Positions 3,792-17,204 of a stretch of DNA of 35,129 nt are shown here, piece by piece. Source of the DNA: a virus; the IMG/VR virus record IMGVR_UViG_3300047299_000011, positions 1 through 35,129 of that record; one strand, given 5' to 3'. The number at the start of each line of letters is the position of its first letter. The first letter of the stretch is position 1. The translations under genes were made by a program, and so were the position numbers. Below the pieces are notes generated by a model, which was not told the origin of the DNA, searched no databases, and saw nothing but the letters and a program-made list of their open reading frames with translations.

Positions 3792-4076
3792 TTGTCCTCC
3801 TTGGATGGAATCCTAATTTACCGTTTTCGGTGTAGGGGATGTACCACAAATTTCTCACACCCAACCCTACCCCTCCCCCCCCATCATCACACCAACCCAG
3901 TACTTTCCCTACTGTCTATCCATACAGACTAGGGTTTACCCTACTGTACAGATCACCAGGTCAAATGTCCTATTGTTCTATTGTCCTAATGTCCTATCTA
4001 AATGCGAATGATTCTCATGCACCTTTTTCGGGGTACTTGTTCTAATGTTTATCAAGGTTCTGTCCTTATCATTCCC
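3792..4076. promoter_or_regulatory. Repeat-rich gap upstream of terS (late control, pac or origin candidate)
   Basis: A 285-bp stretch without a convincing gene. It holds a small inverted repeat ACCG-TTTT-CGGT (3820-3831), a C-rich tract near 3860-3890, and CCCTACTGT twice (3907-3915 and 3939-3947). It also holds a CTGTACAG palindrome (3944-3951) and four tandem 8-bp repeats (3966-3997). Looser copies of the 8-mer recur further right, near 4040-4065. Iterated sites of this kind are typical of terminase recognition sites or replication origins. I could not identify a sigma70-type promoter with confidence. Confidence 0.5.
3966..3997. repeat. Four tandem 8-bp repeats (TGTCCTAT type)
   Basis: The units are TGTCCTAT (3966-3973), TGTTCTAT (3974-3981), TGTCCTAA (3982-3989) and TGTCCTAT (3990-3997), abutting without spacers. 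Two units are identical and the other two each differ at one position. The array lies 175 bp upstream of the terS start. Confidence 0.8.
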
Positions 4077-13262: not shown

Positions 13263-13270
13263 ATGGAAAA
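13251..13270 (+). repeat. Left copy of 20-bp direct repeat flanking the HNH gene
   Basis: AAGGAGTTTTAAATGGAAAA, containing the ribosome site, the SSAP stop and the HNH start. An identical copy lies at 13750-13769, exactly 499 bp away. Removing one copy and the DNA between would join SSAP to the SSB-like gene with its own ribosome site. Confidence 0.9.
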
Positions 13271-13775
13271 CCTAGCAATTAGCCACGACTATGTTTTGTC
13301 AGCATTTGATTATCAAGATGGAAATCTGATTAGAAAGACTGGACGACTAGGCGAAGTTGGTCAAGTTGCTGGTTGTGTTCATAAGGCTACTGGATATATC
13401 CATATTAAGATAAAAGCAAAAGCCTTCAAAGCACATCGTCTTGTTTTCTTGTATCACCACGGCTATTTGCCTGAGTTTGTTGACCACATTGATGGAGACA
13501 AAACAAACAATAGGATAGAGAATTTGAGAGCTGCAACCAAAGAGGAAAATTGCCGAAATCAAAAGATTCGATCAACAAACAAATCAGGTTGTAAAGGAGT
13601 TAGATGGAATAGTCTTTCAAAAAAATGGCAAGTTGGTATTTGTAAGAACTACAAAAATATCCATCTTGGAATGTATGAAGATTTAGAGTTAGCAAGTCTT
13701 GTTGCTATCGAAGCAACTGAGTTAATACATGGCAGATTTTCTGCTTACAAAGGAGTTTTAAATGGAAAAACGTGA
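13263..13775 (+). CDS. HNH homing endonuclease with AP2-type DNA-binding domain
   Basis: A 170-residue free-standing homing endonuclease. HNH core: FKAHRLVFLYHHGYLPEFVD, then HIDGDKTNNRIENLRAAT (residues about 58-92). AP2-like domain: SGCKGVRWNSLSKKWQVGI and KNIHLGMYEDLELA (about 110-150). Such genes cut DNA lacking them and spread by repair. It separates the annealing protein from the SSB-like gene and starts right at the SSAP stop. Its last codons (YKGVLNGK) are read through the second copy of the 20-bp repeat and overlap the next gene by 14 bp. HNH residues appear intact. Confidence 0.9.
   Translation: MENLAISHDYVLSAFDYQDGNLIRKTGRLGEVGQVAGCVHKATGYIHIKIKAKAFKAHRLVFLYHHGYLPEFVDHIDGDKTNNRIENLRAATKEENCRNQKIRSTNKSGCKGVRWNSLSKKWQVGICKNYKNIHLGMYEDLELASLVAIEATELIHGRFSAYKGVLNGKT
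13750..13769 (+). repeat. Right copy of 20-bp direct repeat flanking the HNH gene
   Basis: Identical to 13251-13270. Here it supplies the ribosome site and start codon of the SSB-like gene and, in another frame, the tail of the HNH protein. Confidence 0.9.
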
Positions 13776-14001
13776 TAACAGTGGCGTACTTTTCAAGTCC
13801 GATAAGCGTGATAACGAACGCGCCCCACATTATCGTGGAAACATAACCATTGATGGTCAGGATTACTGGCTATCAGCATGGATTAAAGAGGGTAAAAGCG
13901 GTAAGTTCATGGGTTTAGCAGTAGCCCCTAAAGAACCTATTGCAAAGCCTTCTGAGCGTTCTAAATCAACTGGTTTCGATTCAGACGAAATGCCATTTTA
14001 G
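13762..14001 (+). CDS. SSB-like single-strand DNA-binding protein, 79 aa
   Basis: One compact beta domain (SGVLFKSDKRDNERAPHYRG, NITIDGQDYWLSAWIKEG, GKFMGLAVAPKE) of the kind seen in short phage OB-fold-like and DUF736-like proteins. A basic linker and an acidic end, DSDEMPF, follow. That end imitates the DDDIPF tip by which bacterial SSB recruits partner proteins. With the annealing protein upstream, a role in binding single strands during recombination is likely, though no enzyme motif can confirm it. The start uses the 20-bp repeat. Confidence 0.7.
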   Translation: MEKRDNSGVLFKSDKRDNERAPHYRGNITIDGQDYWLSAWIKEGKSGKFMGLAVAPKEPIAKPSERSKSTGFDSDEMPF

Positions 14002-14196
14002 TTTACGAAGCCCAAAGCGGGTGCTGTGCCAGAGCAAGGTCTATTGGTGACCAATCTAAAGAGTTTTAAGGGCCGATTGGGGCAATGCTTAGAACTCCGT
14101 GAGTTCGAATCTCACCAGACGCAGCGAGTAGGCTTCACCAATACGGGCGAAAGCGGACAGAAATGTCGGACGAACGTTAGTAGCCCACTTTTTTAA
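14002..14196 (+). ncRNA. Candidate structured RNA with tRNA-like T-arm
   Basis: This 210-bp gap lacks an open frame but is rich in plus-strand stems. An outer GAAGCC/GGCTTC pair spans 14007-14012 and 14131-14136. ATTGG-TGA-CCAAT lies at 14043-14055. A 10-bp stem with one G-U pair joins 14061-14070 and 14088-14097. A perfect 5-bp stem with a 7-nt TTCGAAT loop at 14099-14115 is identical in form to a tRNA T-arm. GACA-GAAA-TGTC lies at 14156-14167. A run of six T ends it at 14189-14194. I could not fold a full tRNA: the best acceptor pairing (14017-14023 with 14116-14122) has two mismatches, and no CCA follows. It may be a decayed tRNA, a tRNA mimic or a leader RNA. Confidence 0.45.
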
Positions 14197-14211
14197 TAAT
14201 GATAGGAGTGA

Positions 14212-14544
14212 ATGATGACATTAGATAAATCATGGTTTGGTGGTCAAGTAGAGAAATTCTTTGGTTCTCCACCATTTAAGTTGGTTAGAAAAGAAGACCC
14301 TGCAACGAGTCATGAAGCGGCTCTAACAGTTGACACCACCAAGCTCGAACAAATGGTCTATGAGGCTATTAAAGGCTTCCCAGAGGGCTGTATTTCAGAT
14401 GAAGTCCTAGAGTTGTTCCCGCAGTACCCATATTCCTCGATAACAGCAAGATACAAGGCTCTGTTAGACAAGGGATTCATTGAAATTACTGGTGTTCGCA
14501 CTGGTAAATCAGGTCGCAAACAACGAGTGATGCAAGCAAAATGA
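14212..14544 (+). CDS. Winged-helix-like DNA-binding protein, 110 aa
   Basis: The segment RKEDPATSHEAA is a familiar opening of small phage proteins. It leads into a winged-helix region: LEQMVYEAIKGFPEGCISDE, SITARYKALLDKGFIE, and a basic wing ITGVRTGKSGRKQRVMQAK. Probably a DNA-binding accessory protein. AGGAGTGA precedes tandem ATG codons (14212 and 14215), the second better spaced. Its stop overlaps the next ATG as ATGA. Confidence 0.7.
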   Translation: MMTLDKSWFGGQVEKFFGSPPFKLVRKEDPATSHEAALTVDTTKLEQMVYEAIKGFPEGCISDEVLELFPQYPYSSITARYKALLDKGFIEITGVRTGKSGRKQRVMQAK

Positions 14545-14723
14545 TTGAAAAACCACCTTATTCAAAGATCAGTTATCCCTCTGTGCCAAACAAGGATTTC
14601 AAATGGTCATCTGGTTCTGATGTTCAAGCAATATGGAGAAAGTATGGATGGACTCCTCCTTCAGAAAAGATGATTGCCCCACCGCCAGAGAAGTATCAAG
14701 AACCTTTAAGGAGAGTTAGATGA
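14541..14723 (+). CDS. Hypothetical protein, 60 aa, proline-rich
   Basis: MIEKPPYSKISYPSVPNKDF, then VQAIWRKYGWTPPSEK and a proline-rich tail ending RRVR. Rich in Pro and aromatic residues and mostly extended, with one helical WRKYGW segment. Joined to both neighbours by ATGA overlaps, which strongly supports translation. Function unknown. Confidence 0.65.
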   Translation: MIEKPPYSKISYPSVPNKDFKWSSGSDVQAIWRKYGWTPPSEKMIAPPPEKYQEPLRRVR

Positions 14724-15022
14724 CTTACGCAGCAGTAGAGATGAAAATCATACAATGGGCCGAGGCTCGTAAGATTATCCCCAACAGCACCCCAGAAGTT
14801 CAGCTTCTAAAAGCAATGTCAGAAATGGGAGAACTAGCAGATGCGACCATTAAGAAAGACAAGGAAGTTATTATGGATTCTGTTGGTGATGTCATGGTCT
14901 GCCTTGTTAATTACTGTGCTCTTCAAGACATAAATTTGGTAGACTGTATGGAAGTTGCATACGATCAGATCAAGAATAGGCGTGGTATACTTTTGTCAAA
15001 TGGAGTATTTCAAAAGGATTAA
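14720..15022 (+). CDS. MazG-like nucleotide pyrophosphohydrolase, 100 aa
   Basis: An all-helical protein with the MazG-fold metal-binding pattern: LLKAMSEMGELADATIKKDK (ExxE) followed by DSVGDVMVCLVNYC (DxxxD-type). Phage MazG proteins hydrolyse (d)NTPs or lower ppGpp and keep host metabolism favourable. The extreme C-terminus (NRRGILLSNGVFQKD, 14978-15022) is repeated in diverged form at the end of the following endonuclease gene. This end was probably supplied by the inserted endonuclease and the original end displaced. ATGA overlap with the previous gene. Confidence 0.8.
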   Translation: MTYAAVEMKIIQWAEARKIIPNSTPEVQLLKAMSEMGELADATIKKDKEVIMDSVGDVMVCLVNYCALQDINLVDCMEVAYDQIKNRRGILLSNGVFQKD

Positions 15023-15024
15023 GT

Positions 15025-15696
15025 ATGCGTGGTGTTGCTCAAGACATGATAGGCAAAAGAAGCGGAAAACTTCTTGTAACTGATGGACCTTTTAAGCGAG
15101 ATGGAATGAAAGGTTTATTTTGGCAATGCAAGTGTGATTGTGGAAAATTAGTTTCTCATTACATTGGCACACATCAAATTCTAAAAAGCAGAGCGAAAAG
15201 TTGTGGTTGTTTAGTAATTGAAAGAGTTATAAAAGCAAACACAACACATGGCAAATCTAAGACGGGTGCATACAATTCTTGGAGATCTATGTGGCAGCGA
15301 TGTACCGATACCAAATACAAGAGCCATCATTTATATAAAGATAAAACACCTGTTGATCGATGGAGATCGTTTAAGTGTTTTTTAGAAGACATGGGGGAAC
15401 GACCACCTAATACTTCTATAGAGCGAATTGATAATTCAAAACCATATAGTCCAGAAAATTGCAGATGGGCAACTAATGCTGAGCAACAACAAAACAAAAA
15501 TACAAATATATTTGTAGAGATTGATGGTAAGAAAGTTTGCCTTAAAGAGGCTTGTAGACTTAAGAATATCAAATATAGTAGAGTTAAAGCAAGGATTTAT
15601 TATGGATGGGATCCTTTGGATGCTATTATGCTTCCATCCTTTTCAAGGAGGGGTACTCTTTTGCCAAACGGAATATTTCAGAAAGACGCTACTTAG
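15025..15696 (+). CDS. Putative homing endonuclease, 223 aa, fused to displaced mazG tail
   Basis: The N-terminal domain (LFWQCKCDCGKLVSHYIGTH, then KSCGCL) is a zinc-ribbon-like unit. The middle (GAYNSWRSMWQRCTDTKYKS, WRSFKCFLEDMGERP, SIERIDNSKPYSPENCRWAT) is a signature of phage HNH-related putative endonucleases. The last 17 residues, RRGTLLPNGIFQKDAT and neighbours (from 15646), have nothing to do with that family. They match the end of MazG just upstream, 10 or more of 14 positions. The gene starts 3 bp after the mazG stop. Inserted mobile endonuclease is the clear reading. Confidence 0.8.
   Translation: MRGVAQDMIGKRSGKLLVTDGPFKRDGMKGLFWQCKCDCGKLVSHYIGTHQILKSRAKSCGCLVIERVIKANTTHGKSKTGAYNSWRSMWQRCTDTKYKSHHLYKDKTPVDRWRSFKCFLEDMGERPPNTSIERIDNSKPYSPENCRWATNAEQQQNKNTNIFVEIDGKKVCLKEACRLKNIKYSRVKARIYYGWDPLDAIMLPSFSRRGTLLPNGIFQKDAT
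15646..15696 (+). repeat. Diverged second copy of the mazG 3' end
   Basis: Encodes RRGTLLPNGIFQKDAT, versus RRGILLSNGVFQKD at 14978-15022. Several DNA differences are silent or conservative, so the copies have been apart for some time or come from different strains. This copy is likely the original mazG end. Confidence 0.8.
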
Positions 15697-15832
15697 CAAG
15701 TAAGTAAAGACCCACATTTGAAAATGCGTACCCTGCGTACACAATAGCCATGTGTGGGTTATCTTTCCATAGTTGTTCGCCAGCTATGTAGGCGTAGATT
15801 GCCCCTGTGAGAATAATTAACCAAGAACTCAT
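15689..15832 (-). CDS. Small membrane protein, 47 aa
   Basis: MSSWLIILTGAIYAYIAGEQ followed by a polar turn and MAIVYAGYAFSNVGLYLLAK: two transmembrane segments in a helical hairpin. The ATG overlaps the phosphoesterase stop as ATGA. It is the last gene of the late block, and its 3' end overlaps the plus-strand endonuclease gene by 8 bp. A role in membrane events late in infection is possible. Confidence 0.6.
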   Translation of the reverse strand: MSSWLIILTGAIYAYIAGEQLWKDNPHMAIVYAGYAFSNVGLYLLAK

Positions 15833-16818
15833 AGTTCGCTCACATCAATCACTTCACCTCTGAACTCTACATGGTCTTCAGCAAACTTGTGGACTAGTTC
15901 AGGCCATAACAATTGACCATTAAAAAAGGTCAGCACCGCAAAGCCTGACCTGTGATTAGAGGGATTTAACTCGCCATAAGTAAACTGTGGGCCATCTGGC
16001 TCTGCAAGTGTTCCTGTATCCACTCCAAAACGATTGCCGTTGTAATCAGAGAAAGGTGTAACTTTTAATGAGTGCAAATGTCCAGTAACGATTGATACGC
16101 CAGCGTTTACTGTGTTGTTATGAGCCGCATGAACACCGTTTTTATATCTGTGTTTGACAACAACTTTCTCAGTAGGCCAACAAACCCAACAAAAGTCCCA
16201 ATCTGGGATATGGTCAGTCAACTTAAAGCCTAAAACATCTTTAAATTGTGGTGCGTGTTGAGCAAGCCTATTGCCAAATCGGATGTCATGGTTGCCCCAT
16301 GTAAACACTAGCTTTACATTGTGTCGCTCAGCTTTGGCTGCTTCTTCAATTTCATCCAACGCAAATTGCGTAGCTTTTAACTCCTGAATGACAGAAGTTT
16401 GTGGTAAGTCAGTAACGTCATGTCTCGATATAGACGCACCATCAAACGCATCTCCATTACATATCACCGCCTTTGGTTTGAACTCTTGTATAGCCCATAA
16501 AAGACCTTTAAAGGCGGTAGAGCGTTGACCAGGTATGAAATGGGCATCAGAGAACACCAGAACCACGCCATTCTCAATGCCAAGATGTGTTTGTTTTAGT
16601 GGAGAAAACGATTGTTTCCTAGCATCATACAAAGCACCCTTAAAGTCAGACGCACTTAGTTTAATGTTATGGAATTTCTCCATATTGCGTCTTCTTAAGT
16701 GTATGTTCCTTACATTTACACCAAGTATTTGCGACAGTTTTTGAGCAGATTTATGCTTTTCCCAAAGAGCAATAAACTCTTCATCAGAACATTTCTCATT
16801 ATGATTTTGAGCCGCCAT
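15829..16818 (-). CDS. Calcineurin-like metallophosphoesterase with N-terminal helix-turn-helix
   Basis: 329 residues. The catalytic domain shows the full set of metal motifs: SDAHF (around 87), NGDAFDG (about 120), GNHD (about 174) and VTGHLHS (about 245). The N-terminal 60 residues (EEFIALWEKHKSAQKLSQIL, then NVRNIHLRRR) look like a helix-turn-helix, as in other phage phosphoesterases of this type. Substrate unknown; phosphodiester or nucleotide. It is late-transcribed. AAGGA lies five bases before ATG, and the gene overlaps the zincin gene by 20 bp. Confidence 0.85.
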   Translation of the reverse strand: MAAQNHNEKCSDEEFIALWEKHKSAQKLSQILGVNVRNIHLRRRNMEKFHNIKLSASDFKGALYDARKQSFSPLKQTHLGIENGVVLVFSDAHFIPGQRSTAFKGLLWAIQEFKPKAVICNGDAFDGASISRHDVTDLPQTSVIQELKATQFALDEIEEAAKAERHNVKLVFTWGNHDIRFGNRLAQHAPQFKDVLGFKLTDHIPDWDFCWVCWPTEKVVVKHRYKNGVHAAHNNTVNAGVSIVTGHLHSLKVTPFSDYNGNRFGVDTGTLAEPDGPQFTYGELNPSNHRSGFAVLTFFNGQLLWPELVHKFAEDHVEFRGEVIDVSEL

Positions 16819-17179
16819 TGGAATCCTTAGTAAGCAAGTTTTCTAGCAGATTGACAATCCTGTGTTCTTGCATGGACACATCATCTTCAGATGACTTTGC
16901 ATCCTGAGCAACAATCAACAGATCGTGCAAAAAGATGTGCAGACACTCATGCAAAGCAGTCTTATCAAGGCTGTCTGGAGTTATCTTTTCAGCACCAAAA
17001 TCACCCAACCGATAAGTAGCCAATCTTGCAACATCGTTGAACTCAACAGAAGCCATTGCTTGTTTGGCTGGCTTCATGCCTTTTTCAATCCTCCAATCAC
17101 CAAGTGACAATACTTCTTGCCACTTTTTAATTGATTGAGCAAAGATTTCAGCGTCTTTTGGGGTTGGTATGTTAGGCAT
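16799..17179 (-). CDS. Zincin-type metallopeptidase-like protein, 126 aa
   Basis: Contains HECLH (residues 77-81) in a helix TALHECLHIFLHDLL, the HExxH zinc-binding site of SprT/WLM-like zincins, and a later EHRIVNLLE helix that may give the third ligand. The preceding strand SVEFNDVARLATYRL fits the family. Short phage versions are common beside lysis genes. Whether it cuts protein is unproven. Confidence 0.75.
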   Translation of the reverse strand: MPNIPTPKDAEIFAQSIKKWQEVLSLGDWRIEKGMKPAKQAMASVEFNDVARLATYRLGDFGAEKITPDSLDKTALHECLHIFLHDLLIVAQDAKSSEDDVSMQEHRIVNLLENLLTKDSNGGSKS

Positions 17180-17204
17180 TACAGCACTTTAAAGGTGAAT
17201 TATG

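Follow-up and report, generated by a model that had tools for sequence, protein, structure and literature searches.

Among the closest described counterparts of the locus reported here are the WHO elements, which occupy FBA1 in yeasts of the genera Torulaspora and Lachancea (eLife 2020; PMC7282813). In these elements the target gene is cut, repair swaps in a resistant 3' end, and the old end comes to lie downstream of the enzyme gene as a potential right-hand homology arm; allele-specific cutting was demonstrated by experiment (PMC7282813). A comparable anatomy has been described for the mORFs of fungal mitochondria, which are found in atp6, atp9, cox2 and nad3 of Glomus and in atp6 of Allomyces (PMC3630166). 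Among phages, the free-standing Seg and Mob enzymes of the T4-like group spread by repair of the break with co-conversion of the flanks (PMC2988022). Here we describe a locus in a 35-kb virus record, analysed as a single stretch of 35,129 nucleotides (the window), that probably represents an HNH homing element of the 3'-end-replacement type, consisting of an HNH gene and, upstream of it, a diverged mazG 3' end.

The plus strand of the window carries mazG (14720-15022, 100 aa, C-terminal end NRRGILLSNGVFQKD) and, starting 2 bp past its stop codon, an open reading frame for a predicted endonuclease (15025-15696, 223 aa) that terminates in SRRGTLLPNGIFQKDAT. The mazG product matches PHROG 1992 (E=1.5e-29) and PHROG 715 (E=3.5e-24), and it also matches the Pfam MazG family (E=1.5e-4) with 22.4 bits, barely above the cut-off of 22. 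Alignments to the 60 best distant phage MazG matches run through to the last part of the tail, so that its loss should matter. The two tails, at the end of mazG and at the end of the endonuclease gene, are homologous, with an end-anchored score of 60, the highest score among 706 mismatched pairs being 36, and they share 74% DNA identity over 13 codons. This agrees with an earlier note on this DNA, made from the letters of the window, which had described the downstream end as a diverged copy of the mazG end. Within the replacement mazG tail, six bases ahead of the endonuclease ATG, lies an AAGGA that could possibly serve as the ribosome-binding site of the endonuclease gene. The features of the locus are collected in Table 1.

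Table 1. Features of the mazG-endonuclease locus, in coordinates of the window.
Feature	Position	Strand	Basis
mazG body, native part, through ...AYDQIKN	14720..14977	+	MazG-like NTP pyrophosphohydrolase; PHROG, Pfam and L001 comparison
Foreign replacement mazG 3' end, RRGILLSNGVFQKD, stop TAA	14978..15022	+	Drop in identity to L001; best native match 82%
AAGGA, possible ribosome-binding site for the endonuclease gene	15014..15018	+	Read from sequence; putative function
Predicted HNH endonuclease gene, non-mazG part	15025..15648	+	PHROG 374/3377, AlphaFold, PacI match
Displaced native mazG end with TAG stop, forming the endonuclease C-terminal residues RGTLLPNGIFQKDAT	15649..15696	+	Flank continuity in relatives
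Whole insert, 671 bp, replacing one native Arg codon (CGT)	14978..15648	+	L001 and other uninterrupted relatives

The earlier note had proposed, as a check, to compare the mazG ends of relatives that lack the endonuclease. The 80 nearest mazG loci in IMG/VR, which encode proteins 84-93% identical to that of the window, all lack the endonuclease gene. Their mazG is typically 101-102 codons long with an end like NRRGTLLPNGVFQKDAT, and most of them end like RRGTLLPNGVFQKDAT. In the closest relative, L001 (~90% identical DNA), the site is uninterrupted and joins window position 14977 to 15649: one alignment covers 14243-15004 of the window at 90.6% and a second covers 15649-17187 at 82.7%, with the two overlapping at L001 3262-3285. 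The boundary at 15649 recurs in the comparisons with L003-L008 and L022, where the downstream copy is likewise continuous with the normal downstream flank. Because L001 is continuous across the empty site, the original mazG tail must have been pushed downstream by the 671-bp insert. Comparison with these relatives thus identifies 14978-15648 as the insert and 15649-15696 as the former mazG end, stop codon included. Homology to native tail DNA starts with the motif's second Arg codon, at 15649, and the residues just before it (...PSFSR) are the endonuclease's own. Read in frame, the displaced tail supplies the last 15 residues and the stop codon of the endonuclease, just as the earlier note had suggested when it derived the endonuclease C-terminus from the displaced mazG tail.

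We then asked which of the two tails is the foreign one. The identity of mazG to L001 is 96.1% across the first 255 nt, compared to 62% over the 13 tail codons, with the number of matches per 15 nt falling to 9, 12 and 7 from 14975 on. Among 82 distinct native genes, the best match to the upstream tail reaches 82%; for native mazG tails, the median identity to the nearest neighbour is 95%. For the displaced tail, on the other hand, identity to the native L008 tail is 95%, and the DNA of 66 of the 81 distinct usable native tails is closer to the downstream copy, 10 being closer to the upstream copy and 5 tied. Based on its low identity to L001 and to all natives, and on the native character of the displaced tail, the upstream mazG tail is the foreign one by sequence comparison. 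The endonuclease gene thus stands directly downstream of a complete target gene whose identity to L001 changes from 96% to 62% across 14977, and the displaced native 3' end is kept behind it.

These comparisons also bear on an insertion with target duplication, in which the mazG end would have been copied on both sides of the insert and the copies would then have drifted apart. A direct repeat of the mazG end does flank the endonuclease gene, as such an event would produce. However, duplication predicts most drift in the unselected downstream copy, and we find the reverse, the downstream copy being 95% and the upstream copy at most 82% identical to natives; furthermore, the mazG body is still 96% identical to L001. 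We therefore regard this explanation as highly improbable.

The earlier note had held that the inserted gene brought a recoded mazG end. While the end is indeed foreign, its recoding does not stand up. The 74% identity between the two tails of the window is about equal to that of random native allele pairs, whose tails have a mean identity of ~78%; 5 of the 10 residues common to both tails use the same codon, and all codons of the upstream tail are found among natives except TCA. A Ser at the TCA position is present in the uninterrupted phages L095 and L098, and alleles whose tail starts with AGG occur in L084, L099 and L100. For these reasons we rejected a special recoding: judged from its codons, the upstream tail is simply a divergent allele of the usual kind, which could alter a recognition site, and systematic recoding is not seen. 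The replaced tail of 45 nt is too short for a tree. A scan for the protein sequence of the replacement tail found no donor, and scans for Ser-containing or AGG-first tails returned only other alleles without this endonuclease, so that no donor with the window's mazG tail was found.

A foreign tail and an adjacent endonuclease could also be the product of two unrelated events, ordinary recombination having given mazG its divergent end and a separate event having added an endonuclease with a captured mazG tail. Recombinant mazG tails are indeed common in this phage group, where, without any insert, pairs of genes with heads at least 95% identical have tails with identities down to 69%, and the mazG end appears to be an insertion hotspot, since L099 has another kind of HNH gene there. 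Two independent events would nonetheless have to account for the start of the foreign tail coinciding with the exact interruption of the native DNA and with the point where the displaced copy starts, and for the same pairing being found again in ninB and in a head gene. The chance that they produced this locus seems to us very small.

The L099 gene (L099:3461-4095, a 186-codon frame) lies at the last mazG codons behind a tail that starts with AGG-CGT like that of the window. We considered whether it is the same element and rejected this, as it is a different HNH gene with no displaced tail and represents an independent event at this position. The 3' end of mazG may be a hotspot where endonuclease genes insert. 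Another endonuclease gene, of the HNH_3/AP2 type, lies upstream in the window (13263-13775), between the gene for a Sak annealing protein and a small gene (13762-14001). It is flanked by a 20-bp exact repeat, AAGGAGTTTTAAATGGAAAA, which corresponds to the ribosome-binding site and start of the next gene. That next gene is 72% identical to L001, with its surroundings at ~90%, and may be a co-converted foreign neighbour. The region from 14000 to 14212 is non-coding and contains a tRNA T-arm-like sequence, gtgagttcgaatctcac, with 14116-14218 being 92% identical in L001; ARAGORN and Rfam found nothing in the window, including this region.

The endonuclease matches PHROG 374 over residues 2-192 (E=1e-46) and PHROG 3377 over residues 72-208 (E=3e-40), and a Pfam search gave no HNH match and no intein family. 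Nine phage relatives in the alignment are 34-39% identical to it. Matches to the endonuclease stop near residues 191-221, mostly 199-213, and relatives end at ~204-213 without a mazG tail. An AlphaFold model built with 43 sequences has a pLDDT of ~95 up to residue 200, over most of residues 81-200, and of 51-54 over residues 211-223 in the mazG-derived tail. The best aligned solved structure was the HNH restriction enzyme PacI (Z 6.1, 76 residues, 2.8 Å); this fold match to the model is weak to modest and agrees with the HNH annotation. Foldseek returned no match to the model at E<=0.001, and a sequence search of the PDB found no relative. The conserved residues include a zinc-ribbon-like CxCxC...SCGC set and an R...Y...NC.W pattern. 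When we looked for close relatives of the endonuclease in IMG/VR with six 8-residue patterns, only proteins 34-35% identical were found, and GTDB genomes contained no close relative. As a single copy of the mazG element was found in these searches (IMG/VR patterns, GTDB), its own mobility is something we only infer.

To see how far the layout recurs within the enzyme family, we collected 80 further members from IMG/VR as well as members from cultured phages, and compared, anchored at their ends, the end of the gene before the enzyme with the open frame ending just after it (89 loci). Compared to the null of mismatched pairs given above, higher scores were obtained for the window (60), L117 (54), L182 and L183 (both 52) and L092 (45), and L181 and L105 were recognised as having the layout by inspection; the majority of family members at these loci do not have it. 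L139, which had the top score in a wide duplication test, was rejected, the sequence in question being a paralogous gene and not a displaced tail. In total, the layout was found in three unrelated genes within one enzyme family: mazG, ninB and a head morphogenesis gene.

In L105 and its sister L117 the enzyme lies in ninB, with a full-length ninB upstream and a displaced fragment downstream, the displaced tails aligning with positions 73-131 (E=1e-16) and 73-128 (E=1e-15) of the NinB Pfam family. The two enzymes are identical at 195 of 214 residues; over the last 65 codons of the upstream ninB genes, 56 residues are the same and 23 third positions differ. The displaced tails share 33 of 67 residues and are therefore much farther apart than the element itself. 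They differ at 43 third positions, compared to 23 first and 23 second positions, and are thus still marked by selection on the protein. By its sequence this pattern suits entry of the element into two different recipients. The spacer between ninB and the endonuclease (3862-3981 in both L105 and L117) is 97-100% identical between the two, where the coding parts differ by ~15%, and is possibly a regulatory or recently exchanged segment.

The third gene was found in the cultured Acinetobacter phages AP22, YNAF and Ab59. Here the head morphogenesis gene ends CRK(C/Y)LIIDIPETI and is followed by the enzyme and then by CR(K/A)KLIIEIPD. IME-AB2, a relative without the enzyme at this site, has an intact head gene that ends NCRCRKKLIIEIPESMA. 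The head gene of AP22 is 81-99% identical to that of IME-AB2 over the first 540 nt and 58-64% identical after this point, and for AP22, YNAF and Ab59 together the identity to this HEG-free phage drops from 81-99% to 58-66% in the 3' part. The displaced head-gene ends behind the HNH gene (L092:2802-2858 in AP22, L182:4082-4130 in YNAF) are unannotated in the records. Both L105/L117 and AP22/YNAF combine a like element and a common right-hand junction with different displaced tails, which at the sequence level suggests entry into different recipients. For ninB and the head gene, some of this divergence between genomes could also be due to displaced tails that have no function and therefore drift faster.

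The main rival to a homing element is a one-off illegitimate insertion during intronless homing of the T4 type, leaving the displaced tail as debris. The donor would have had a free-standing endonuclease behind a divergent mazG; repair of the cut would have copied both the mazG tail and the endonuclease of the donor, and the right end would have been joined by chance inside the recipient's tail. This would fit an endonuclease that starts 2 bp past the mazG stop, like a free-standing gene, and that has no stop codon of its own, as if it had been cut off; moreover, free-standing T4 enzymes are known to spread with co-converted flanks (PMC2988022), and one copy of the mazG element is known. A chance joining would not, however, be expected to give the same layout in three unrelated genes within one enzyme family, and the common right junctions with differing displaced tails in L105/L117 and AP22/YNAF fit better with a repeatable process. 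We consider the one-off insertion unlikely, although it deserves more weight than the other alternatives.

In the homing mechanism that we propose, the starting points are the insertion, the displacement, the foreign tail and the recurrence in other genes, as seen in the sequence comparisons; cutting, the route of repair, resistance and continued MazG function we infer by analogy. During a mixed infection, the endonuclease would cut the mazG end of an element-free phage near the codons for KN|RRG, with the cut site proposed near AAGAAT/CGTAGGGG. Repair of the break would be templated by the element-bearing genome, with a left crossover in the mazG body and a right crossover in the displaced tail that lies past the endonuclease. 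This would leave the recipient with a complete, chimeric mazG ending in the foreign sequence, followed by the endonuclease gene and then by the recipient's former tail. The foreign tail would keep mazG complete; its differing sequence probably makes mazG uncuttable, and the protection from cleavage that the earlier note had proposed would fit the layout. The foreign tail may also be too unlike the displaced copy for ready recombination between the two, by which the element would be lost. In the window, the old tail is in frame and gives the endonuclease its stop codon.

The likeness to mobile endonucleases that the earlier note had pointed out holds, as the layout matches both WHO elements (PMC7282813) and mORFs (PMC3630166). 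Like a WHO element, the locus has an endonuclease behind a chimeric target, an element-borne 3' end and a displaced old 3' fragment downstream, and the target is similar over its 5' portion but divergent over its 3' portion; in WHO elements, differences between alleles confer resistance. However, the WHO enzyme is intein-derived and has zinc fingers, whereas that of the window belongs to an HNH family, so that by sequence this locus falls outside the WHO elements sensu stricto. WHO elements furthermore lie in nuclear yeast genes, form clusters of successive insertions and have had their cutting shown by experiment, whereas the phage case is known from sequence. With mORFs the locus shares the order of foreign C-terminal end, endonuclease ORF and native C-terminal end, with a native copy that resembles the empty-site relative and a divergent inserted copy. 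In contrast, mORF enzymes are of the LAGLIDADG or GIY-YIG type and reside in organelle genomes, and some mORFs are fused in phase to the host gene, whereas in the window it is the displaced native end that is in frame with the endonuclease. Similar to the T4-like Seg and Mob enzymes, the endonuclease is phage-encoded without an intron or intein, but those enzymes are usually intergenic or interrupt a gene so that it is encoded in two pieces (mobE in nrdA), and replacement of a target 3' end with the displaced copy kept is not described in PMC2988022. The HNH enzyme of AP22 (NC_017984) and its kin belong to the same PHROG-374-like family and have the same layout in the head morphogenesis gene; they differ in the target gene, in the enzyme, which is 31% identical to that of the window, and in the displaced tail, which lies past the enzyme's own stop codon but in the window is fused to the enzyme. 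No phage example of such an arrangement turned up in a search of open-access papers in PMC, a limited library. Both the enzyme family and 3'-end replacement as a strategy are already known; within the literature covered, the occurrence in phages is apparently the new part.

Our results suggest a route into the coding sequence of a useful phage gene that a homing gene can take with neither intron nor intein, namely by bringing a complete but different target end. This anatomy was previously known from fungal mitochondria and yeast. We see about an even chance of a broader picture, in which one phage HNH family repeatedly enters coding genes by 3'-end replacement, each element carrying an uncuttable target end and each recipient's old tail being kept as right homology arm and fossil, a natural cleave-and-rescue element independent of the fungal ones. 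Crosses and assays are simple in phages, and since the cultured phages AP22, YNAF and Ab59, with the HEG-free relative IME-AB2, provide one of the cases, the WHO homing model would be directly testable in Acinetobacter phages. The layout also explains one source of the mosaic gene ends and unannotated gene-end fragments in phage genomes.
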